A stretch of DNA of 64,000 bases, from positions 1,922,001-1,986,000 of the forward strand of contig NZ_OW235315.1 of the NCBI RefSeq assembly GCF_934924865.1, written 5' to 3'. The notes beneath the pieces are model-generated. The model worked only from the letters and a program-made list of their open reading frames with translations, was not told where the DNA came from and searched no databases. Of this stretch, positions 8,335-57,348 are shown piece after piece. The stretch is from Tepidibacter aestuarii (GTDB lineage: Bacteria; Bacillota; Clostridia; Peptostreptococcales; Peptostreptococcaceae). Position 1 is the stretch's first letter; each line of letters begins with the position of its first letter. The translations under genes were made by a program, and so were the position numbers.

Positions 8335-8655
8335 TTAAAAATAAAAAAACTCCCTCCAATAGCTATTAGCTATAGGACGGGAGTATTATTCACGTGGTTC
8401 CACCTATTTTTATCGATACCTCACAATATCAACCTCTTCAAGTACGACAAAGATTACTTTGTTTATACTCTAGCACTATAACGGGTACAAGGATTCCGGA
8501 AACAGTCTACTACCAAAATGGATTCGGTGTTCAGCTCAGAAATGTGTTCAAAATATACTCTAATGACCCTCTCACCAACCGGGAACTCTCTGTTTAAGAA
8601 AATATATCTCTACTATTTTTCATCAACGCATTTGAATTTTTTATTTTTAATATTG
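8335..8655 (-). promoter_or_regulatory. T-box riboswitch of hisS (histidine-specific)
   Basis: Read on the minus strand, the leader begins with an AGAGAGTT...GGTGAGAG Stem I base. It continues to GCTGAACACCGAATCC, which places CAC (His) at 8527-8529 as specifier. The conserved T-box sequence AGGTGGAACCACG and a terminator follow (stem ACTCCCGTCCTAT/ATTGGAGGGAGT then seven T). Uncharged tRNA-His would favour antitermination and read-through into hisS. Specifier choice rests on its place after GCTGAA and its match to the downstream gene. Confidence 0.88.
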
Positions 8656-46226: not shown

Positions 46227-46538
46227 AAAAAAACACTTCATCCTAATATATAGGACGAAATGTTTATATTCCGCGTTGCCACCTAATTTAAAATAGTATC
46301 ACTACCATCTCTCTCTTCCAAGTACAGAAATAGACCTATCTATTTCGATACTCTGTCCCTATAACGTGAGACCCACGACAAGTGATACTCTCCTACGATT
46401 TCACACCGCTTCTCATAGAACCATTCAGTAACCAATTCATATCGGGCTTCCACCATCCCCAACTCTCTATAACTTCATGTATTACTTACTTTTTCTAATC
46501 GTCGAATTTTTAATATTCGTAATTTTTGATATTTTTTA
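46227..46538 (-). promoter_or_regulatory. Tryptophan T-box riboswitch of the trp operon
   Basis: Full T-box: AGAGAGTTGGGGATGGTGG Stem I base, specifier TGG (46421-46423) within ACTGAATGGTTC, Stem III region, then GGTGGCAACGCGG and a terminator (ACATTTCGTCCTA/TAGGATGAAGTGT plus eight T). Uncharged tRNA-Trp would allow read-through. Confidence 0.88.
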
Positions 46539-46610: not shown

Positions 46611-47723
46611 TTAAGCGTGTATTTTATTTTCTTCTAACACTTCTTGCAATGCATCTATAAATTTTTGAGTTTGGTCTTTAGTTCCTGTACTAACTCTTAA
46701 CCAGTTTTTCCAATCCCAAAAATATCCAGGTCTTACTATTATTCCTTTTTTGAGTAATTCTTCAAATACTATTTTTGAATCAACTCCAACATTTACAAAT
46801 ATAAAGTTTGAATTAGACTTTATATACTCTATATTATTTTCTTCAAAATATTTTTCCATCATTCCCATACACTCATAGTTAAGCTCTACAGTTTTATCTA
46901 TATGATCATCATCATTTAAAGCTCCTATTCCTGCAGCTTGAGCCAACCTGTTAACATTAAATACCATCTTCATCTTATTCATAGCACTAGTTATTTCACT
47001 TGATGTAAGTAAATATCCAACTCTTACTGATGCAATTCCAACAGCCTTTGAGAATGTTCTAAGTATAATAGTATTTGGTCTTTTTCTTAATATCTCTAAA
47101 GAATCTGGATACTTATCATTTTTTACAGCATACTCATAATAAGCTTCATCAAATACTAAAACTACATCTTCCGGAGTATTCTTTACTAAATAATCAATAT
47201 CATCCTTAGTCATTATATTTCCAGTCGGATTGTTTGGATTACATACATAAATTAATTTCGTCTTATCGTTGATTTTTTGAACAAATTTTTCAAAATCATG
47301 CTTATAGTCTTTAAGATCTATTTGATGAGCAACTCCACCCATAAAAAGAACTTCACTCGCATATTTTCCAAATGTAGGGTTAGCCATTATAGCTTCATCG
47401 CCTTCATTTATAAAAGTTTGAGCTATTATTTTTAAAAGCTCTTCCCCACCATTACCTACAACTATATTTTCATGCTTTAGATTGTATCTTTTACATAATC
47501 CATCTTTTAACTTAGTGCAGTTAGAATCTGGATATATATGTATACTATCTAATTCTTTTTTTATTTCATTAATAGCCTTTAAAGATGGCCCTAATGGATT
47601 TTCATTAGATGCAAGCTTTTCAATATTTTCAATACCTAATTCCTTCTTTAATTCATCTACAGACTTTCCAGGTATATACGGTTTTATAGAAGCTACTTCT
47701 TTTCTAAACAGATTTTCACTCAT
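46611..47723 (-). CDS. hisC: Histidinol-phosphate/aromatic aminotransferase
   Basis: 370 residues, fold-type I PLP aminotransferase. [42 protein letters not shown], and PLP lysine in [16 protein letters not shown]. HisC enzymes also transaminate phenylpyruvate and hydroxyphenylpyruvate. With no his genes nearby and a place at the end of the aro operon, its main job is probably the last step of Phe and Tyr synthesis. Confidence 0.9.
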
Positions 47724-47758
47724 AATTTCAACCCCTTATTTTTACATTATATATAAAT

Positions 47759-48190
47759 TTAAATATTCATATTTACAAATACCATCATAGCCATAACGTA
47801 TCCATAAATTCCAAATCCACAAATTTGCCCAATACATACCGGAGCAGTTACAGATTTTCTTCTATATTCTTCCCTTGCATGAACATTGCTTATATGAACT
47901 TCAATAGTTGGTATTTGTACTGCTTTTAAAGCATCATATATTGCTATGCTATAATGAGTATATGCTGCAGGATTTATTATAATCGCATCATAAACACCAT
48001 AGGCATTTTGTATATAGTTTACAATTTCACCTTCTATATTACTCTGAACTATATCTATTTTTAGTAATAACTCTCTTGCTTTTTCATATAAGTATGAACA
48101 TATTTCTTCATATGTTTTTTCACCATATATATCTTTTTCTCTAATACCTAAAAAATTAATATTAGGGCCATTTATTATTAGTACTTTCAA
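47759..48190 (-). CDS. aroQ: Type II 3-dehydroquinate dehydratase
   Basis: I choose TTG at 48188-48190 (KVLIINGPNINFLGIREKDIYG), nine bases after AAGGAG; the ATG three codons earlier touches the ribosome site. 143 residues. Catalytic Tyr in IYGEKTYEEI, Asn in IINPAAYTHYSIAI, His in VHISNVHAREEYR. Makes 3-dehydroshikimate. Confidence 0.93.
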   Translation of the reverse strand: MKVLIINGPNINFLGIREKDIYGEKTYEEICSYLYEKARELLLKIDIVQSNIEGEIVNYIQNAYGVYDAIIINPAAYTHYSIAIYDALKAVQIPTIEVHISNVHAREEYRRKSVTAPVCIGQICGFGIYGYVMAMMVFVNMNI

Positions 48191-48212
48191 GGATTTCATC
48201 TCCTTATTTTAT

Positions 48213-48713
48213 TTAATCTACACATTTAATTATTCTACCTACAACTTCATTTAATTCTGTATCATTAATTATCTCATAGTCACAATATTTCTTATAAAGG
48301 TAATACCTTTGTTTAAATAGGTTATAAATTTTGTATTTTCCATCTTTTAATAAAGGACGTGAACTTATATCAACATTAGAAATTATGTCTTCTATGGGCC
48401 TGTTAACAAATATTATTATTCCATTTTTATTAAGTCTTTCTATATTTGAATATAACTTCACTACACCTCCTCCAGTAGATATAACCATAGAAAACTTACT
48501 ACTCACCTCTTCTACTGCTTTACTTTCAATTTTTCTAAAATAATCTTCTCCATAATTAAATATATCTGTAATGCTTCTTTCTTCTTTTTCTTCGATATAT
48601 TTATCTATGTCAATAAATTCCATACTTAATCTTTGAGCTAAAATATTTCCTATAGTTGTTTTGCCGCATCCAGGCATTCCTATAAGAACTACATTTTTAT
48701 TTATCTTTCTCAT
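48213..48713 (-). CDS. aroK: Shikimate kinase
   Basis: 166 residues. P-loop LIGMPGCGKTTIGN, FIDIDKYIE, shikimate-binding STGGGVVKL, and the lid arginine ISSRPLLKDG. Its ATG overlaps the aroE stop by four bases. Confidence 0.95.
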   Translation of the reverse strand: MRKINKNVVLIGMPGCGKTTIGNILAQRLSMEFIDIDKYIEEKEERSITDIFNYGEDYFRKIESKAVEEVSSKFSMVISTGGGVVKLYSNIERLNKNGIIIFVNRPIEDIISNVDISSRPLLKDGKYKIYNLFKQRYYLYKKYCDYEIINDTELNEVVGRIIKCVD

Positions 48714-49540
48714 TCATTATTACCACCTTGCAGTATTGAATTAATTTTATAATAGATCTTATCACAAATAGCACTATCAATTTCTGTGTTATTCCATAAT
48801 TCTTCTGCTTTTACAGCTTGCCCTATCAACATATACAATCCATTTATAGATACTAATCCTAATTCTTTTGCATATTTTAAAAATAAAGTTTGTGTAGGAT
48901 TGTATATCAAATCAACTGCTACTTTAAATTTTGACATATCTTCTTTATTAATAGGAGAAATATTTACATTAGGATGCATTCCACATGGTGTGCAATTTAT
49001 TATTATATCTTTTTGTTTTAAATGTTTTATTTCATCATATGATATTAATTTAAATTTTTTAAATTTTTCATCCACTTTACTAATATCCCTACTTACAAAT
49101 ACAATATCATTTATTTCTTTATCTAAAAGGTATTGGACTACAGCTTTTGAAGCTCCTCCCGTTCCAAGTATTACAGCAGTTTTATTCTTAACATTAACAT
49201 TATATTTATTAAGCATTATTCCAAATCCATAGTAATCAGTATTATATCCAATAGTTTTATTATCTTTAAAACATATTGTATTTACTGCTCCTATTTTATT
49301 AGATTCTATTGACATACCATTTAAATATTTTATTATGTCAACCTTATACGGTATAGTAACATTTGCTCCTCTTGCTTTTAATGCATTTAATCCAAACACT
49401 GCATCTTTTAAATGTTCATTATTAACTTCAAATAAATGATAATGTCCATCTATACTTAACTCTTTAAATATTATTGAATGTATTATAGAAGAAAAGCTAT
49501 GGCCTAGCTTTTCTCCTATAAGTCCATATAAACTACTCAA
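48710..49540 (-). CDS. aroE: Shikimate dehydrogenase
   Basis: I choose the TTG at 49538-49540 (SSLYGLIGEKLGHSFSSIIH), six bases after GGGGG, giving 276 residues. Longer frames would run into pheA. Motifs: LGHSFSSIIH, NVTIPYKVDIIKYL (catalytic Lys), NADP loop AVILGTGGASKAVVQYL, and INCTPCGMHPN. Reduces dehydroshikimate. Confidence 0.93.
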   Translation of the reverse strand: MSSLYGLIGEKLGHSFSSIIHSIIFKELSIDGHYHLFEVNNEHLKDAVFGLNALKARGANVTIPYKVDIIKYLNGMSIESNKIGAVNTICFKDNKTIGYNTDYYGFGIMLNKYNVNVKNKTAVILGTGGASKAVVQYLLDKEINDIVFVSRDISKVDEKFKKFKLISYDEIKHLKQKDIIINCTPCGMHPNVNISPINKEDMSKFKVAVDLIYNPTQTLFLKYAKELGLVSINGLYMLIGQAVKAEELWNNTEIDSAICDKIYYKINSILQGGNNE

Positions 49541-49562
49541 AGCAATCCCCCTTTTAAACTTT

Positions 49563-50711
49563 TTATATTTTATGCGATTTGTAATTTCCAAGTAATTTAA
49601 AATATATGCTCTCTTTTTCAATTAATTTAATTGTTTCTTTTACCACTTCATCCCTCAAACAACCTTCAAAATCAATATAGAAGAAATATTCCCATGATTT
49701 ATCAATAATAGGCCTTGATTCTATTTTTGTCATGTTCAAATTATTTTGAGCAAAATACTTTAGAATATTAAAAAGAGTACCTGGTTTGTGTGAAATAGAA
49801 AACAATATACTAATTTTATTGCAATCATTACTTATTTCAAGATTTTTACCTATTACAATAAATCTTGTATAATTACTTTGATTAAAATTTATGTTAGATT
49901 CAAGTATATCTAAATCGTATAATTGTGCTGCTTTTTTACTAGATACAGCGGCTTTCGTTTTTGAATTTTCATTCTTAATAAACTTTGCACTAATAGCTGT
50001 ATTACTATAAGGAATCAGTTTCCAATCAGGATATCCTTTGAAAAATTCACTGCTCTGTTGAAAAGCTTGAGAATGTGAATATACCTCTTTGATATCTTCT
50101 ATTTTAGTACCTTTAATAACCAGTAAATTATGATCTACTTTTAAGCATTTCTCGCCTATTATATAAAGTCCATATTTACGTAACAAATCATATATTTCTG
50201 ATATTCCACCAGTAGACGAATTTTCAATAGGAAGTACTCCATAATCTATCTTATCGTTTTTGAGTGCTTTAAAAACATCTTCAAATTCATTTAGATTTTT
50301 AGTTTTAGCCTCCTCTCCAAAATACTCTATAAGAGCCTGTTCACTAAAAGATCCATGCACTCCTTGAAAACCTACTATATATTCATTTTCTTTATTTTTG
50401 TATATTGTATTCTTTGTTTTATGTTTTTTTTTATCACTTATATCAATATAATTACTTAATTGATCTTCTTGAATTGATCTGCTAATATCCATAATATTTT
50501 TTAAAAATTCTTGTGCTGATTTTTGAAAATATTTATTTTTAATATAATTAGTATTTTTACTTAAAACTTGTTCTTCTCTGTATATATTTAATATAGGAAA
50601 ATTATTTTCATATTTGTATTCAGCTATCTCTAATACTTTTTCCATTCTTTTTTCAAACAACTTAATAAGTTCTTTATCTATACAGTCAATCTCTTTCCTT
50701 AAATTATCCAT
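49563..50711 (-). CDS. pheA: Bifunctional chorismate mutase / prephenate dehydratase
   Basis: ATG at 50709-50711 (MDNLRKEIDCIDKELIKLFE) with GGGAGGGGGTAAA upstream, giving 382 residues. AroQ-type mutase helix bundle about 1-90; prephenate dehydratase about 125-305 (VGFQGVHGSFSEQA, PIENSSTGGISEIYD, SNYTRFIVIG); C-terminal ACT domain (SISHKPGTLFNILKYF, ESRPI) for Phe feedback. Its start overlaps the aroC end by 13 bases. Confidence 0.94.
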   Translation of the reverse strand: MDNLRKEIDCIDKELIKLFEKRMEKVLEIAEYKYENNFPILNIYREEQVLSKNTNYIKNKYFQKSAQEFLKNIMDISRSIQEDQLSNYIDISDKKKHKTKNTIYKNKENEYIVGFQGVHGSFSEQALIEYFGEEAKTKNLNEFEDVFKALKNDKIDYGVLPIENSSTGGISEIYDLLRKYGLYIIGEKCLKVDHNLLVIKGTKIEDIKEVYSHSQAFQQSSEFFKGYPDWKLIPYSNTAISAKFIKNENSKTKAAVSSKKAAQLYDLDILESNINFNQSNYTRFIVIGKNLEISNDCNKISILFSISHKPGTLFNILKYFAQNNLNMTKIESRPIIDKSWEYFFYIDFEGCLRDEVVKETIKLIEKESIYFKLLGNYKSHKI

Positions 50712-51799
50712 TTTACCCCCTCCCTTTCTATCACTAAATCTAACAAAGATACAGCACAAGCAGCTTCAACAACTGGTACTGCTCTTTGTACAATACATGG
50801 ATCATGACGTCCCGTTACATTTATTTGTATATTCTCTCTTTTAGATATATCAACTGTTTTCTGCACTTTTCCTATTGAAGGAGTAGGTTTAAATGCAGTT
50901 CTAAATATAATAGGCATACCACTAGTAATTCCACCGAGTACTCCTCCATTATTGTTTGTATAGGTTTTAACTTTATCTTCATCTATAAAAAATTCATCAT
51001 TAGCCTCAGAACCTTTCATTTTAGTAATATAAAATCCTGCTCCAAATTCAACTCCTTTTACTGCTGGAATAGAAAATAGTATATGTGCAAGTTTACTTTC
51101 AATTGAATTAAAAAATGGTGAACCTATTCCTACTGGGAAGTTTATTACTGCCGTTTCAACTATTCCTCCTACAGAATCCTCTTCTTCTTTTTCTTTTAAA
51201 ATTAATTCTTTCATTTTTATCCCTATTTCATCATCAATAACAGGAAAATCTTTTTTTACTATCTCTTTCAAAAATTCACCTTTAAGATTTACCCAATCAA
51301 AATATTCTTCATTTATATTACCTATGCTTTTTATATGACTTCCAATTATTATATCTTTTCTTTCTAAAATTTGTTTTGCTACTGCTCCTGCAAAAACTAA
51401 TGGTGCAGTTAATCTCCCTGAAAAATGTCCTCCCCCTCTATAATCATTAAAACCTGAGTATTTTATATATCCTGTATAATCGGCATGACCTGGTCTCATA
51501 ACATTTTTTATAGATTCATAATCTTTCGAATGTTGATTCGTGTTATATATAACAGCACATAGTGGTGTTCCTGTTGTTTTATTGTTAAAATATCCACTTA
51601 ATATATCAAACTCATCACTTTCTTTTCTTGGTGTAGATATTTTATTCTTACCTGGTGCTCTTCTTTGCATTTCGTTATTTATATAATCAAAATTCAATTC
51701 TATACCTGCTGGAAGACCATCTATAACTATTCCTATGGCTTTTCCATGAGACTGCCCAAAGATTGAAAGTTTTATATTATTCCCCCATGTTCCACTCAT
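50699..51799 (-). CDS. aroC: Chorismate synthase
   Basis: 366 residues. Forms chorismate from EPSP with reduced FMN. Motifs: SIFGQSHGKAIGIVIDGLPAG, RAPGKNKISTPRKESD, MRPGHADYTGYIKY, DYRGGGHFSGRLTA, GVLGGITSGMPI, RHDPCIVQRAVPVVEA. ATG lies 23 bases inside the aroA end. Confidence 0.96.
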   Translation of the reverse strand: MSGTWGNNIKLSIFGQSHGKAIGIVIDGLPAGIELNFDYINNEMQRRAPGKNKISTPRKESDEFDILSGYFNNKTTGTPLCAVIYNTNQHSKDYESIKNVMRPGHADYTGYIKYSGFNDYRGGGHFSGRLTAPLVFAGAVAKQILERKDIIIGSHIKSIGNINEEYFDWVNLKGEFLKEIVKKDFPVIDDEIGIKMKELILKEKEEEDSVGGIVETAVINFPVGIGSPFFNSIESKLAHILFSIPAVKGVEFGAGFYITKMKGSEANDEFFIDEDKVKTYTNNNGGVLGGITSGMPIIFRTAFKPTPSIGKVQKTVDISKRENIQINVTGRHDPCIVQRAVPVVEAACAVSLLDLVIEREGVKWII

Positions 51800-53078
51800 C
51801 TATTCTTCCTCCTAGCTTTTTAAAATCACTCCAGAATGTTGGATAAGATTTTTTTACAGAATCGCTGTTTTGTATAATAACAGGTTCACTGCATTTTATT
51901 GAAGCAATTGCTAAAGCCATGGCTATACGATGATCATTCCAACTATCAACAGTTCCACCTTTTAACCTTTCTTTTCCATTAATCAACAACCCATCTTCTA
52001 ATTCTTTAATATCTGCACCTAATTTATTTAACTCTGTGGCTATGGCTTTTAATCTATCTGATTCTTTTATTCTAAGTCTAGCAGCATTAATTATTTTTGT
52101 AGTTCCAACACTTAAAGATCCTAAGGTTGCAAGTATCGGAACAAGGTCTGGACATTGAGAAGCATCAATTACTATTCCTTTTGTTTTTGAACTTTTAACT
52201 TCAATAAATTCATTATTTATAACTATATCTCCATCCATATTTTTTACTATATCTAAAATAGCTTTATCTCCTTGAAGAGAACTAACATTCAAACCAATGC
52301 ATTTAATATTATCTCCTAGTATTCCTGCCACAGTCCAAAAGGCTGCTTGAGAAAAATCTCCTTCTACTCTATAATCATTAACTTCATATTTTTGATTTCC
52401 CTTTATATAAAACTCTTTATAGTTATTATTTTCTATTTTTATAGAAAACTTATCTAAAACATCAATTGTTAAATCGACATACCCCTTTGATTCAAGATCA
52501 GTTGTTATTACTATTTTAGAATCTCCATTAAGTATTGGTAATACAAACATAAGTCCAGTAATAAACTGAGAACTTACATCCCCTTTAATTTCAAAAGTTC
52601 CTGGTTTTAATATTCCATTAACACTTAAAGGTAATTTTTTATTATCATTTAAATACTGTATACCCTGTTTTTTAAATATTTCATAATAAGTATCAAGAGG
52701 TCGCTCTATAAGTTTTCCTCTACCAGTAAAAGTTATACTTTCTCCAATCAAGCAAGCCATTGGTATAAAAAATCTTAGTGTAGATCCCGATTCTTTACAA
52801 TCAATTTGATTATTTATTAGCTTTAATGCTTCATTTCCTTTTATTGAAATTTTACTTGTTCCACTCCCTGAATCTATTTCACTTTTTTTAACTTTTATCC
52901 CTAAAGATTTCATACCTTCTAATGTGGCAATAATATCATCAGAAAATGCAATATTTTCTATGTTACTTATTCCATCACTAAATCCCCCACAAATTATAGC
53001 TCTATGGCTAATGCTTTTAGATGGTGGTATTCTGATTTCTCCTTCAAGTATTGATGGTGTTATTTTTACACATTTCAC
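51777..53078 (-). CDS. aroA: EPSP synthase
   Basis: 433 residues. GTG start eight bases after GGAG. Motifs: RIPPSKSISHRAIICG, GSTLRFFIPMACL, GDVSSQFITGLMF, DCPDL-like SQCPDLVPILATL, RLRIKESDRLKAIA, WNDHRIAMALAIAS. No GNAGTAMR form: it reads ESGSTLRF, typical of class II-like Gram-positive enzymes. Confidence 0.95.
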   Translation of the reverse strand: MKCVKITPSILEGEIRIPPSKSISHRAIICGGFSDGISNIENIAFSDDIIATLEGMKSLGIKVKKSEIDSGSGTSKISIKGNEALKLINNQIDCKESGSTLRFFIPMACLIGESITFTGRGKLIERPLDTYYEIFKKQGIQYLNDNKKLPLSVNGILKPGTFEIKGDVSSQFITGLMFVLPILNGDSKIVITTDLESKGYVDLTIDVLDKFSIKIENNNYKEFYIKGNQKYEVNDYRVEGDFSQAAFWTVAGILGDNIKCIGLNVSSLQGDKAILDIVKNMDGDIVINNEFIEVKSSKTKGIVIDASQCPDLVPILATLGSLSVGTTKIINAARLRIKESDRLKAIATELNKLGADIKELEDGLLINGKERLKGGTVDSWNDHRIAMALAIASIKCSEPVIIQNSDSVKKSYPTFWSDFKKLGGRIDEWNMGE

Positions 53079-53099
53079 TCTAAAAACTCCTTTTGTCGT

Positions 53100-54164
53100 C
53101 TAAATTTTTATATAAATATTCATATCTTTTCTATCTATCTTCTTTAAAAAACTATCTCCTATTCTTTTTAGCAAAATAATATTAATATCATCTCCTTTAT
53201 TTTTCTTATCTAAATTAATAGTTTCGATAGCTTCTTTTTTATTCATATTAGGCAGTTCATATGGTAGTTTATACTTAATCAGTATTTTCTTTATTTTATC
53301 TACTGTTCCTTTTTGAGTTATACCTATATCCTCGCTTTTTTTAGTTATATAATGCATCCCTATTGCTACAGCTTCTCCATGAGTATACTTTTCATATTTA
53401 AAATGTTTTTCTATAGTATGACCTAAAGTATGCCCAAAATTTAATATCATTCTCTCTCCTGTGTCTTTTTCATCACTTTCTACTATATCCTTCTTTATTT
53501 TGCAGCATCTATATATTATTTCTTCTATATTATTAAATAACTCTTGATCACTATTATATTTGAGTAGATTTTGAAATAAATTTTCATCCCTTATACAACC
53601 ATACTTTATTACCTCAGCCATTCCGTCATATAGGAATCTTTTATCAAGAGTATTTAATAACTCTGGATCTATATAAACTGCTTCTGGATGATAAAAGCTT
53701 CCTATAAGATTTTTACCTTTAGGTAAGTTAACTGCTACCTTTCCACCTACACTGCTGTCAATTTGTGCAAGTAGAGATGTTGGAATTTGTACAAATGGTA
53801 TTCCTCTAAGTAGTGTAGAAGCTACAAAACCTGTCAAATCCCCAACAACACCTCCTCCAAATGCTATTATTAAATCAGCTCTAGTTATTTCAAAATCTAA
53901 AAGCTCATCATAAACATTTTGAAGAACATCTATTGATTTACTTTTTTCACCAGGATCTAAAACAATCATTTTGACTTCAAAATCATTTTTAAGATTATTT
54001 CTTATTTTTTCTCCATATATTTTTTCAACATTTGCATCTGTAATTATAGCTATTTTCTTGTTCTTGTATATTTTTTTCAACTCTTCTCCAATGTTATTTA
54101 TCAGCCCTTTTTCAATATATATAGGATAATTTTTCTGAGGAAGATTTATATTTAAAGTATGCAT
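53100..54164 (-). CDS. aroB: 3-Dehydroquinate synthase
   Basis: 354 residues. NAD and metal site: AFGGGVVGDLTGFVASTLLR, PTSLLAQIDSSVGGKVAVN, KNLIGSFYHPEAV, AEVIKYGCI, LNFGHTLGHTIEK and THGEAVAIGMHY (zinc ligands). Ends two bases before tyrA's stop side neighbour, tight operon spacing. Confidence 0.95.
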   Translation of the reverse strand: MHTLNINLPQKNYPIYIEKGLINNIGEELKKIYKNKKIAIITDANVEKIYGEKIRNNLKNDFEVKMIVLDPGEKSKSIDVLQNVYDELLDFEITRADLIIAFGGGVVGDLTGFVASTLLRGIPFVQIPTSLLAQIDSSVGGKVAVNLPKGKNLIGSFYHPEAVYIDPELLNTLDKRFLYDGMAEVIKYGCIRDENLFQNLLKYNSDQELFNNIEEIIYRCCKIKKDIVESDEKDTGERMILNFGHTLGHTIEKHFKYEKYTHGEAVAIGMHYITKKSEDIGITQKGTVDKIKKILIKYKLPYELPNMNKKEAIETINLDKKNKGDDINIILLKRIGDSFLKKIDRKDMNIYIKI

Positions 54165-54166
54165 AA

Positions 54167-55024
54167 TTACATTATCTCCCCTCTCTTAAGTTTTCCTTTT
54201 TCAAATATAGATTCCAATGAATCAATATCTTTATTTATTATTAAATTTTTAATCTGAGATAAACTTTTTTCAAAAATATCTATCTTTTCTATTATATTTT
54301 TCCCATTATCTATAAACACTTCTAACCAAAGCTGAGTATTCATATTTGCTACTCTTGTAGCATCTTTAAAACTTCCTCCAATAAATAAATTTGTATTTTC
54401 CTCAATATCACTGTTCACAAGAGCTGATGCTATTATATGAGGTAATTGACTTGTAAAAGCAATAATTTCATCATGCTTTTTCGGACTAACTTTAACTATA
54501 TTTTTACAACCTATACTTTTAATAATATTTTCTAAAATCTCAATATTTTCTTTTTTATTTTTATTTGTAGGAGTGATTATATAATTTGCATCATTAAATA
54601 TATCCTTTGATGCAAACCCAATCCCCTTACTTTCTCTTCCTGCCATTGGATGAGCACCAATAAAATCCAAGTCTTTACGTAAAAATGAATTTATTTTTTC
54701 TAATATTTTATGTTTAATACCTGCAGTATCAGTTATTATAGCTCCTGATTTAAAATTATTCATATTATCATTTATAAATTTTATTGTTAATTCTGGGTAT
54801 AAACAGATAATTACTATATCAGAATTCTTAAGTGGAATTTCAGGTTGTAAGTATCCTTTATCAATTATCCCCAGACTCTTTGCGGTTTTAATAGCATCTT
54901 CATCTATATCAACAGCCCATAAATTTTTAGGTTTTAATTTATTTAATGCCATTGCAAATGATCCACCAATAAGCCCTAACCCTACAATAGTTATATTAAA
55001 ATCCAACTCATCCAAATACATCAC
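54167..55024 (-). CDS. tyrA: Prephenate dehydrogenase
   Basis: 285 residues without an ACT domain. NAD loop ITIVGLGLIGGSFAMAL, TDTAGIKHKI, FIGAHPMAGRESKG, and AFTSQLPHIIASAL. Makes hydroxyphenylpyruvate for Tyr. Four bases downstream of aroF. Confidence 0.94.
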   Translation of the reverse strand: MMYLDELDFNITIVGLGLIGGSFAMALNKLKPKNLWAVDIDEDAIKTAKSLGIIDKGYLQPEIPLKNSDIVIICLYPELTIKFINDNMNNFKSGAIITDTAGIKHKILEKINSFLRKDLDFIGAHPMAGRESKGIGFASKDIFNDANYIITPTNKNKKENIEILENIIKSIGCKNIVKVSPKKHDEIIAFTSQLPHIIASALVNSDIEENTNLFIGGSFKDATRVANMNTQLWLEVFIDNGKNIIEKIDIFEKSLSQIKNLIINKDIDSLESIFEKGKLKRGEIM

Positions 55025-55028
55025 CCCA

Positions 55029-56042
55029 TTATATTTCTTTATTTTCTATATTCGCTATTTGTTTTAACGAACTCATTAATGATTTAAATTTTTCAGGTTT
55101 AATAGATTGCTGCCCATCACACTTAGCATTAGCAGGGTCATTATGAACTTCTATCATTAATCCATCTGCACCAACTGCCATGGCTGCTTTAGCTAATGGT
55201 TCAACTAACCACCATAGTCCACCTGCATGACTAGGATCTACAATTATTGGCAAATGGCTGTGTCTTTTTATTATAGGTATAGCACTTAAATCTAAAGTAT
55301 TTCTTGTGTATTTTTCGAACGTTCTTACACCTCTCTCACAAAGTATTACATTTTCATTCCCTTCTGACATTATATATTCAGCTGACATTAGAAATTCTTC
55401 AATGGTAGCAGACATGCCTCTTTTTAATAAAACAGGTTTTTGGGTTTTTCCTACCTCTTTCAATAAATCAAAATTTTGCATATTCCTTGCACCTATCTGT
55501 ATAACATCTACATCTTCTATAAATTTTTCTATAACATCAGCAGACATAAGTTCTGTAACTATAGGAAGACCTGTTTTTTCTCTTGCTAATTTTAAAAGTT
55601 CAAGTCCTTCTCCTCTTAACCCTTGAAAACTGTATGGTGATGTTCTAGGTTTGAAAGCTCCTCCTCTTAAAAATGTAGCACCTGCTTGTTTAATATCCTC
55701 AGCAATACTTAGAATTTGTTCTTCACTTTCTACAGAACAAGGACCTCCAATAACAGCAAATTTATTTCCTCCAATACTGTTACCATTCACTGTAACTATA
55801 GTGTCTTCTGGATGAAAAATCCTATTTGCCTTTTTATATGGTTCCTGTACATTCATTAATTTATCTACATTTCTATTTGATTGAATAATAGTTGGGTCAA
55901 TTTTACTTGTATCGCCAACCAAACCTAAAATAGTATAATTATCTCCTATTGATTCATGAACTTGGCACCCTAAACTCTGCATTTTAACCTTAATTTTTTC
56001 AATTTCACTTTCTTGTGTTTTTGGTTTCATAACAATGACCAT
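55029..56042 (-). CDS. aroF: DAHP synthase (type I beta)
   Basis: First step of the shikimate pathway. 337 residues: an N-terminal ferredoxin-like regulatory domain (about 1-70, VIVMKPKTQESEIEKIK) and the barrel (VIGGPCSVESEEQI, FLRGGAFKPRTSPYSFQGL, QIGARNMQNFDLL, LLKRGMSATIEEFL, VDPSHAGG). AAGGAGGTAATTAAT before ATG. It is the first enzyme gene after the tandem leader attenuators. Confidence 0.95.
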   Translation of the reverse strand: MVIVMKPKTQESEIEKIKVKMQSLGCQVHESIGDNYTILGLVGDTSKIDPTIIQSNRNVDKLMNVQEPYKKANRIFHPEDTIVTVNGNSIGGNKFAVIGGPCSVESEEQILSIAEDIKQAGATFLRGGAFKPRTSPYSFQGLRGEGLELLKLAREKTGLPIVTELMSADVIEKFIEDVDVIQIGARNMQNFDLLKEVGKTQKPVLLKRGMSATIEEFLMSAEYIMSEGNENVILCERGVRTFEKYTRNTLDLSAIPIIKRHSHLPIIVDPSHAGGLWWLVEPLAKAAMAVGADGLMIEVHNDPANAKCDGQQSIKPEKFKSLMSSLKQIANIENKEI

Positions 56043-56072
56043 ATTAATTACCTCCTTAAATTTTTATAAAAA

Positions 56073-56099
56073 AAGAAGACTCATCTAATGAGTCTTCTT
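56073..56099 (-). terminator. Attenuator terminator, leader copy 1 (proximal to aroF)
   Basis: 12-bp stem AAGAAGACTCAT/ATGAGTCTTCTT with a 3-base loop and seven T on the minus strand. Its 5' arm contains CTCATTAGA, which can instead pair with TCTAATGAG inside the leader ORF. Confidence 0.88.
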
Positions 56100-56151
56100 T
56101 ATGTTTGTATATATTGGAAAAATATATATTTAAAACTAATATATATATTTT

Positions 56152-56310
56152 TTATACACAAATACATAACTTTTTATTATTCTCATTAGAAAGATGAATT
56201 TTTATTTTTTTGTATAACAACCATCCAGCGCTATAAAAGTAAAAATAGCTCCAGCTAAAAAAGTAAAATTTAAATTGTTCTACATTTCCCTTTCTAATAA
56301 GTTTTTCCAT
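56152..56310 (-). CDS. Aromatic leader peptide, copy 1 (52 aa)
   Basis: ATG at 56308-56310, eight bases after GGAGG. The peptide begins MEKLIRKGNVEQ and then runs FKFYFFSWSYFYFYSAGW: 12 of these 18 residues are Phe, Tyr or Trp. It ends NENNKKLCICV, TAA. It stands directly before an attenuator terminator and the aro operon, so it is best read as a sensing leader, not a functional protein. Codons 4-7 (CTTATTAGAAAG, 56290-56301) are complementary to CTTTCTAATGAG (56182-56193). Confidence 0.85.
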   Translation of the reverse strand: MEKLIRKGNVEQFKFYFFSWSYFYFYSAGWLLYKKIKIHLSNENNKKLCICV

Positions 56311-56356
56311 TTTTCATACCTCCAAAATAATTTTGTTTTTATTTTTTTAATAAAAA

Positions 56357-56383
56357 AAGAAGACCCGTCTAATGAGTCTTCTT
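56357..56383 (-). terminator. Attenuator terminator, leader copy 2 (promoter-proximal)
   Basis: AAGAAGACTC/GGGTCTTCTT stem (one G-T pair) followed by seven T on the minus strand. As in copy 1, its 5' arm holds CTCATTAGA, the alternative partner of the ORF segment TCTAATGAG (56471-56479 region). Confidence 0.85.
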
Positions 56384-56440
56384 TGTTTTAGTATATGTTA
56401 TTTAAAAATATATATATTAAAAAAACTAATATATACTTTT

Positions 56441-56599
56441 TTATACACAAATACATAACTTTTTATTATTCTCATTAGAAAGACAATTTTTTATTTTTTT
56501 GTATAACAACCATCCAGCGCTATAAAAGTAAAAATAGCTCCAGCTAAAAAAATAAAATTTAAATTGTTCTATATTTCCCTTTCTAATAAGTTTTTCCAT
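56441..56599 (-). CDS. Aromatic leader peptide, copy 2 (52 aa)
   Basis: ATG at 56597-56599 with GGAGG eight bases upstream. Same 52-residue plan as copy 1, with Ile for Val at position 10 and NCLSNE for IHLSNE near the end; the FKFYFFSWSYFYFYSAGW block is unchanged. It is the first translated ORF after the promoter. All control segments (56579-56590, 56471-56482, 56368-56376) are conserved in sequence and order. Confidence 0.85.
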   Translation of the reverse strand: MEKLIRKGNIEQFKFYFFSWSYFYFYSAGWLLYKKIKNCLSNENNKKLCICV

Positions 56600-56653
56600 T
56601 TTTCATACCTCCAAAGTAATATTCCATTAATAATAATTTTGTTATTTTTAGTA

Positions 56654-56681
56654 ATTATATCAGAATTTTCAAAATTGTCAA
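56654..56681 (-). promoter_or_regulatory. Promoter of the aro operon
   Basis: On the minus strand TTGACA (56676-56681), 16-base spacer, TATAAT (56654-56659), with TG just before the -10. Start near 56647, about 48 bases before the first leader ORF. Confidence 0.85.
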
Positions 56682-56856
56682 CATAAATCCAATCGATCAC
56701 ACAATATTTTTTTTATTTTTTATATAACTTTTTTTATGATGTAAATTTATCTTAAAATTGTATGTATTAAATCAATAACTAAACCGACTAACGCAATACT
56801 CACATGAAAAAGACAACCTCATTTTAATAAGATTGCCCTGATTATTTCAAAATCAC

Positions 56857-57348
56857 CTATTCTTGTATAATATATTTTGAGTCAATAAAGTCTACAAATC
56901 AAATCGTATCATTTGTATGATAAAATTGCACCCCATCTATTGATGCTTGTTTTGCATTAATTTTAAGAAGAATTGAAATTTCAGCTCTTCTTTTTCCTAC
57001 TTATATTGCTGTTTCAATATCTGACGATAAGTGAATATATTGTCTGTTTTCATCTAATTTTTTAATTATAATTTCTAAATCTTTTATATTTAAAGACTTC
57101 CACTTTATATCATACCTTAATGATTCAATCAATTGATATATATCCACCCAACCATTTTCAGCTAACTCCAACTCATATTTCCATGGCTCATGCCTTAAAG
57201 CAAAAGAAATTTCTTTGCATAAAAACACCCCTTCACACAAATATATTATACCATTTGGTCTTAACTTTGTATAAAGGGGTTTTGGATAACTGTAAAACAA
57301 ATAGTTATTAAATTTATATAGTTTATATACTAAATCAAATAATCGCAT
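56857..57348 (-). pseudogene. RNA 2'-phosphotransferase (KptA) relic, copy 2
   Basis: One minus-strand frame reads EISFALRHEPWKYELELAEN, GWVDIYQLIESL (winged-helix half), RQYIHLSSDIETAI, then TAA at 57001, VGKRRAEISILLKINAKQAS, GVQFYHTNDTI, TGA at 56899 (where a Trp is usual), and FVDFIDSKYI. The block holding NGKIRALYGHS is deleted between the halves. KptA normally removes the 2'-phosphate left on spliced tRNA using NAD. Two stops plus the deletion make it dead. 56700-56856 holds a 75-bp repeat shared with 59818-59895. Confidence 0.75.

Follow-up and report, generated by a model that had tools for sequence, protein, structure and literature searches.

The window analysed here, a stretch of 64,000 nt from Tepidibacter aestuarii, carries on its minus strand a putative operon for aromatic amino acid synthesis, preceded in the direction of transcription by a promoter and two leader units (in the order promoter, unit 1, unit 2, aroF). 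The two units are direct repeats, sharing 96% identity over 187 nt at a spacing of 289 nt, and in each of them a leader ORF of 52 codons starts with an ATG placed 8 nt downstream of a GGAGG sequence. By count from the translation, codons 13-33 of the leader peptide specify 13 aromatic residues, namely six Phe, five Tyr and two Trp. The promoter (positions 56681-56654, 12/12 consensus matches) outscored every other minus-strand candidate in a scan of positions 55900-57300. Both the consensus promoter and the two repeats, each comprising a terminator and a 52-codon ORF led by GGAGG, had been described in a sequence-only reading of this DNA, and our analysis bears out both observations. Upstream of the promoter, positions 57001-57348 of the minus strand hold a 115-aa ORF that looks truncated and matches RNA 2'-phosphotransferase (PF01885) in part, over profile positions 6-63 of 177. 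The coordinates of all the features are collected in Table 1.

Table 1. Features of the aro leader region and of the genes and T-box leaders in the window
Feature	Position	Strand	Basis
Promoter TTGACA-16-TATAAT, with TG before the -10 element	56654..56681	-	12/12 consensus matches
Unit 1 leader ORF, 52 aa, aromatic codons 13-33	56441..56599	-	ORF list and homologues
Unit 1 segment 1 (CTTATTAGAAAGGG), codons 4-8	56577..56590	-	Inverted-repeat search and duplex energy
Unit 1 in-ORF hairpin CUGG-A-GCUAU/AUAGC-G-CUGG around the first Trp codon	56514..56543	-	Folding and family comparison
Unit 1 segment 2 (CTTTCTAATGAG), codons 40-43	56471..56482	-	Inverted-repeat search and duplex energy
Unit 1 segment 3 (CTCATTAGA), in terminator 5' arm and loop	56368..56376	-	Duplex energy
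Unit 1 intrinsic terminator with T tail (hairpin 56384-56356)	56349..56384	-	Terminator scan, folding
Unit 2 leader ORF, 52 aa	56152..56310	-	ORF list
Unit 2 segment 1	56290..56301	-	Inverted-repeat search, swap test, duplex energy
Unit 2 in-ORF hairpin	56225..56254	-	Folding
Unit 2 segment 2	56182..56193	-	Inverted-repeat search, swap tests, duplex energy
Unit 2 segment 3	56084..56092	-	Swap tests, duplex energy
Unit 2 intrinsic terminator with T tail (hairpin 56100-56072)	56065..56100	-	Terminator scan, folding
aroF-tyrA-aroB-aroA-aroC-pheA-aroE-aroK-aroQ-hisC, putative controlled operon	46611..56042	-	ORFs; NCBIfam names
T-box leader before trpE	46248-46511	-	RF00230 match; UGG in the expected specifier region by reading of the alignment
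Second T-box leader	8370-8635	-	RF00230 match

Eight of the ten gene names in the aro operon rest on matches above the NCBIfam cut-off for a named function, while tyrA and aroK are best matches below their cut-offs. The genes trpE, trpG and trpD, with which the Pfam domains agree, come after hisC and lie behind a T-box, so that two kinds of tRNA sensing, the aro units and the trpE T-box, seemingly serve one pathway within a single gene cluster.

Three mutually exclusive pairings (1:2, 2:3 and 3:4) had been proposed for each repeat, and they were found in the window as described. Specifically, the calculated duplex energies in units 1 and 2 are -15.8 and -15.6 kcal/mol for 1:2, -11.6 and -11.7 kcal/mol for 2:3, and -12.6 and -15.3 kcal/mol for 3:4. 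The whole-unit folds lie 4.1 sd (unit 1) and 5.2 sd (unit 2) below those of shuffled sequences, and the two strands of positions 55900-57300 contain four terminator-like sites against 0.2 in shuffles, one of the four being the unit 2 terminator read on the plus strand. The 2:3 helix is mildly unusual in the window, being equalled by 16/500 shuffles for unit 1 and 12/500 for unit 2. The strong evidence for the putative switch is comparative and does not come from the window alone.

When the peptide alone was used as query, 7 of 71 genomes of the host's family gave a match at E<=0.01; two of these seven (G001 and G056) are weak matches with no aro gene found nearby, and are probably due to chance. 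A DNA pattern of the unit core, run over the genome collection, retrieved at least 118 stretches. Among the 80 pattern matches listed, many carry the leader (Clostridium, Anaerosolibacter, Geosporobacter, Alkaliphilus, Vallitalea, Megasphaera, Trichococcus), and others, from Pseudomonas, Hymenobacter and more, are without it and look like chance. A leader-peptide profile (A1) built from 20 peptides matched 93 of 247 genomes of the order, in 56 of 121 genera, and 46 of 391 genomes of the class (both at E<=1e-3), as well as 13 of 398 genomes of the phylum (E<=1e-4), these three genome samples overlapping with one another. In all 11 loci fetched from the phylum sample, the leader is followed by aroF on the same strand. 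Leaving these 11 aside, 207 distinct units in the loci fetched pass E<=1e-3, and 188 of them bear Trp while 19 do not. A profile search of 5.8 billion proteins returned 255 relatives; among the 120 listed, every named one is annotated as hypothetical or uncharacterized protein. The leader is also present in a genome recorded as Clostridioides difficile.

The Trp-bearing peptides contain on average 7.9 Phe, 5.4 Tyr and 1.3 Trp residues each, and the first aromatic codon has a median position of 13 in the family. The alignment of the 20 peptides shows no variation at W and S and hardly any at F25, A28 and G29, while the peptide ends vary. By a lenient rule, and in a set selected for Trp, 155/188 units show a Shine-Dalgarno-like sequence 5' of the start codon. 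Two loci (L048 and L051) contain a Tyr-rich uORF variant without Trp (SYNYYYYFNFTSSGKAF) before an aroF relative, perhaps a diverged form. As judged by these matches, the leader unit is one of a widespread family and not a local invention.

The genes following the leader belong mostly to the same pathway. As assessed by BLASTP to the proteins of the window, 185/207 units have a gene of the aromatic pathway as the first one downstream (aroF 160, pheA 9, aroK 7, aroB 3, aroA 2, aroE 2, aroQ 1, tyrA 1); leaving out the aroF-anchored loci, an aro gene comes first in 169/191. Five of the 207 units have no ORF downstream, and in 17 the first gene is another or unassigned one. Three of these 17 have aroF in second position. 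Eight are followed by sodium:solute symporter-like genes (L113, L123, L060, L258, L264, L275, L299 and L300; L113 and L300 confirmed by Pfam), which are candidate aromatic amino acid transporters, and three by lactate racemase (LarA)-like genes (L127, L155 and L160; L127 confirmed by Pfam), possibly linked to aromatic hydroxy acid metabolism. One further gene encodes an SBF-family symporter by Pfam, and the remaining two are not clearly assigned to any of these groups. In addition, one gene lies between leader and aroF in L019 (2839-3537) and in L020 (3685-4341); the former gives a short match to isocitrate/isopropylmalate dehydrogenase (PF00180), and the latter, in L020, is followed by another leader.

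Among the loci fetched, back-to-back units occur only in the genome of the window and in G003, of the same genus; the other two genomes of the genus (G001 and G002) gave no match to profile A1. The other double arrangements (L020; L172, L177 and L250) have about one gene's length between the units. In the G003 locus (L016, contig C69), where both tandem leaders are present, positions 1085-2286 hold an aroF match over 54 residues only, followed directly by an aroA match, and tyrA and aroB are without a match in the 4,000-base stretch.

The terminator recurs throughout the family. It was found in 183 of the 188 Trp-bearing units, beginning 70-185 nt past the Trp codon in 178 of the 183 (median 131 nt) and preceding the first downstream ORF in 167/182; in a sample of 40 units, all 40 real stretches contained it, against 3/40 when shuffled. 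The pairings were assessed on 106 representatives no more than 75% alike, out of 174 usable units, and the midpoint of segment 2 falls 55-75 nt past the Trp codon in 85 of them. For 2:3, the own partner is better than the mean of arms swapped in from other units in 90/106 (p about 1e-12), with mean duplex energies of -10.7 kcal/mol for own and -8.5 kcal/mol for swapped arms (p 1e-14), statistics that ignore relatedness. This signal is one of averages, the own arm ranking in the best 5% of swaps for just 18% of the 106 units.

The sequences of segments 2 and 3 also change together. Segment 2 of the AATGAG class occurs with segment 3 of the CTCATTA class, and CTAAG with CTTAG, giving a class table of 32/1/1/15 (49 of 95 units) with a Fisher p of 1.6e-10, which likewise ignores relatedness and refers to classes defined after the sequences were inspected. 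Dissimilar pairs of segments are still complementary, as are AAATCCCTC with GAGGGATTT (L255, L265) and CGGGAAACT with AGTTTCCCG (L268). Among units of the main segment-3 class, the advantage of the own arm over swaps is not clear (24/39, p 0.09). In the 34 units outside both classes, the own arm is better than within-group swaps in 27/34, with no gain over the arms of the main classes (p 0.21). The conserved bases of segment 2 are translated in different frames (SNE, LMS, LVR, LRR), and selection therefore acts on the RNA.

The 1:2 helix gives a weaker signal than 2:3. Its own partner is better than the mean of swaps in 75/106 units (p about 2e-7, again ignoring relatedness) and not in the other 31, so that the pairing is supported in many units and not shown in all. 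Compensatory change in relatives had been named as a check on the sequence-only reading, and 2:3 is indeed kept through such change; the 1:2 part of that proposal holds in the window and is conserved more weakly in relatives. The recurrence of terminator, 2:3 and 1:2 in relatives, most of them located before aromatic-pathway genes, supports the attenuation mechanism put forward from the window.

What that earlier reading overlooked is a conserved hairpin surrounding the Trp codon. RNA of this region can fold as CUGG-R-GCU...AGC-G-CUGG, with a mean energy of -9.1 kcal/mol for the native hairpins compared to -3.2 kcal/mol in synonymous recodings, and 63/68 hairpins are significant at p<0.05. In a fixed-window form of the recoding test 64/79 reach p<0.05, as do 2/94 of the windows before and 1/83 of the windows after the hairpin. 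When 66 of the 68 hairpin pieces were aligned with MAFFT, the seven core pairs were intact in 456/462 cells, and the core-pair changes retained include C-G to U-A, G-C to A-U and one-sided changes that keep pairing. The covariation score of the hairpin was matched by 0/500 shuffles and the count of pairs with double changes by 1/500, while the count of cells with double changes was matched by 131/500. Of two extra pairs, one at each end of the hairpin, the outer does not form in 25/66 pieces and the inner does not in 28/66.

The bases following the hairpin are conserved as well: across 88 units, T occurs at +11 in 99%, A or G at +12 in 89%, and C or G at +13 in 91%. The +11 base also opens an aromatic or Cys codon. 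Hairpins that pause RNA polymerase occur in other attenuators, and the spacing in hairpin-dependent pausing fits conserved bases 11-13 nt past the hairpin. The bases at +11 to +13 are thus no more than suggestive of a polymerase pause site. We propose that the in-ORF hairpin could time the polymerase or the ribosome, a role with which its location just before segment 2 is consistent.

The same region raises the question of whether the peptide is conserved for its own sake. In TnaC, a peptide-sensing arrest is brought about through the exit tunnel, and the motif W-G-F-Y-F-S-A-G-Y might similarly stall the ribosome by tunnel contacts and not through uncharged tRNA, in keeping with the invariant W and S and the near-invariant F25, A28 and G29 of the 20 peptides. 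However, the codons and pairing are better kept than the residues. The Ser codon is AGC in 52/53 units against a background of 19.5%, a count made on units retrieved by other means than the DNA pattern, whose codon choice is therefore unselected, although the peptide profile itself favours W and S-A-G; C is the third base of the codon preceding Trp in 83/88, across several residues. Moreover, S-A-G is lost or altered in L220, L262, L284 and L207 while the hairpin still folds, and in L220, where S-A is gone, it forms from the same 5' arm. Codon bias and a hairpin kept despite changes in S-A-G indicate that the constraint is largely on the RNA, and S-A-G owes its conservation chiefly to the hairpin. 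Peptide arrest was therefore rejected as the main cause of the S-A-G motif, and as an account of the units it is very unlikely.

Two further explanations concern what the ORFs are for and what the units respond to. Hydrophobic 52-aa ORFs with terminators of their own, arranged in tandem, have the outline of a type I toxin locus, and they might encode stable small hydrophobic proteins (toxins or membrane peptides) standing before aro genes by chance. The chance of this is close to negligible, given that 169/191 units found without aroF precede an aro gene, that the peptides differ at their ends and in the frame in which segment 2 is translated, and that neither Pfam (6 peptides) nor NCBIfam (9 peptides) gave a match to the leader peptide above cut-off. 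As to an antisense RNA of the kind found in type I toxin-antitoxin systems, plus-strand promoter matches in the leader region reach just 9/12, and positions 55900-57300 hold 15 promoter-like sites compared to 12.4 in shuffles. A response to general slowing of translation, or to its uncoupling from transcription, would be in line with the frequent Cys and Lys codons directly past the hairpin, and ribosome-stalling drugs can cause antitermination at leader attenuators. It is nevertheless very unlikely indeed that the units serve this purpose and not aromatic supply specifically, since aromatic residues dominate the peptides and the downstream genes are mostly those of aromatic synthesis.

We therefore favour attenuation by the translating ribosome, and put at roughly 90% the probability that each unit is a ribosome-mediated transcription attenuator that gauges how much charged Phe, Tyr and Trp tRNA is available. 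From the ORFs, terminators, conserved pairings, hairpin and gene context, established by sequence and comparison, we infer ribosome stalling, masking by queued ribosomes, timing by the hairpin and an effect of the tandem. Specifically, a ribosome would initiate on the leader ORF, and the hairpin at the Trp codon would hold the polymerase or pace the ribosome, so that the latter is inside aromatic codons 13-33 while segments 2 to 4 are being transcribed. When aromatic tRNA is scarce, the ribosome would stall in the aromatic run, leaving segment 2 (codons 40-43), just past its footprint, free to pair with segment 3; this would block the terminator and the aro operon would be transcribed. With ample supply, the ribosome would advance over segment 2, or 1:2 would re-form after its release, and with segment 2 occupied 3:4 would form and transcription stop.

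The footprint of a ribosome extends about 15 nt to either side. Given the spacing of segment 1 (codons 4-8), the run (13-33) and segment 2 (40-43), a ribosome stalled anywhere in the run would leave segment 2 free. Masking of segment 1 would fall to a ribosome halted early in the aromatic run, or to those queued behind it. This answers in part the caveat, raised previously, that segment 1 lies at the start of the ORF: a ribosome at the first aromatic codon would reach the end of the segment, and followers may cover it when the stall lies further along. One peptide may sense Phe, Tyr and Trp jointly. In addition, two units in series behind one promoter would multiply the range of control and could make it tighter. 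A bolder version extends this scheme to a trivalent aromatic attenuator widespread among Clostridia and related classes. Here the hairpin within the control codons would cause RNA polymerase to pause and wait for the ribosome, the coding of S-A-G by the 3' arm of the hairpin would mean that RNA structure has fixed an arrest-peptide-like motif, and queued ribosomes would mask segment 1 along with the stalled one. We hold this version tentatively, at a little below even odds.

In the usual teaching, attenuation by leader peptides belongs to enterobacteria, and Firmicutes use T-boxes or TRAP instead. A T-box (RF00230) binds uncharged tRNA directly and controls a terminator without an ORF. The trpE T-box of the window serves the same pathway as the aro unit and, as proposed for the latter, responds to uncharged tRNA and acts on a terminator, while the aro unit has an ORF instead; RF00230 gave no match at the aro leader, though two T-boxes were found elsewhere in the window. 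A TRAP-controlled leader presents a row of NAG triplets to which TRAP binds. No Rfam family reached its gathering score on the aro leader, where a scan at E up to 10 gave only 13 matches, all far below their thresholds.

Within Firmicutes, a His leader peptide has been described before hisZ and hisS* in bacilli (PMC2965389); it is likewise a leader-peptide attenuator and differs by its histidine codons and the genes it precedes. The motif uORFC-13-1 is a candidate attenuator before aroF in Acholeplasma, with a uORF containing one or more Phe codons, an extra base-paired substructure and a terminator; its 24 examples, in which a U run is described as encoding at least one Phe, are reported only from Acholeplasma and environmental sequences (PMC8632094). 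As compared by published description, it shares with the clostridial unit a uORF and a terminator before aroF, and no family so named is among the Rfam matches to the window. The accessible part of a C. difficile start-site paper (PMC7438776) yielded nothing on the aro leader. The literature searched, which covered few subscription papers, contains precedents only and no earlier description of this leader family; ribosome-mediated attenuation is classical, and this family, its putative three-way sensing and the in-ORF hairpin are not described there. The family offers a testable prediction for the control of aromatic synthesis in many Clostridia, including the genome recorded as Clostridioides difficile.

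The ribosome-mediated attenuators of enterobacteria include the pheA, trp and ilvGMEDA leaders, the last of which senses several amino acids. These attenuators, among them RF01859 (Phe_leader), resemble the clostridial unit in having a leader ORF with control codons, exclusive 1:2, 2:3 and 3:4 pairings and a terminator before the operon. At the level of sequence, RF01859, whose threshold is 55 bits, scores 22.4 on the aro leader and 19.7 on the opposite strand. In contrast to them, the clostridial unit combines three aromatic amino acids in one peptide, has its segment 1 ahead of the control codons, and carries a conserved hairpin within these. An RNA hairpin overprinted on control codons would make it possible to test directly how transcription and translation are kept in step in attenuators.
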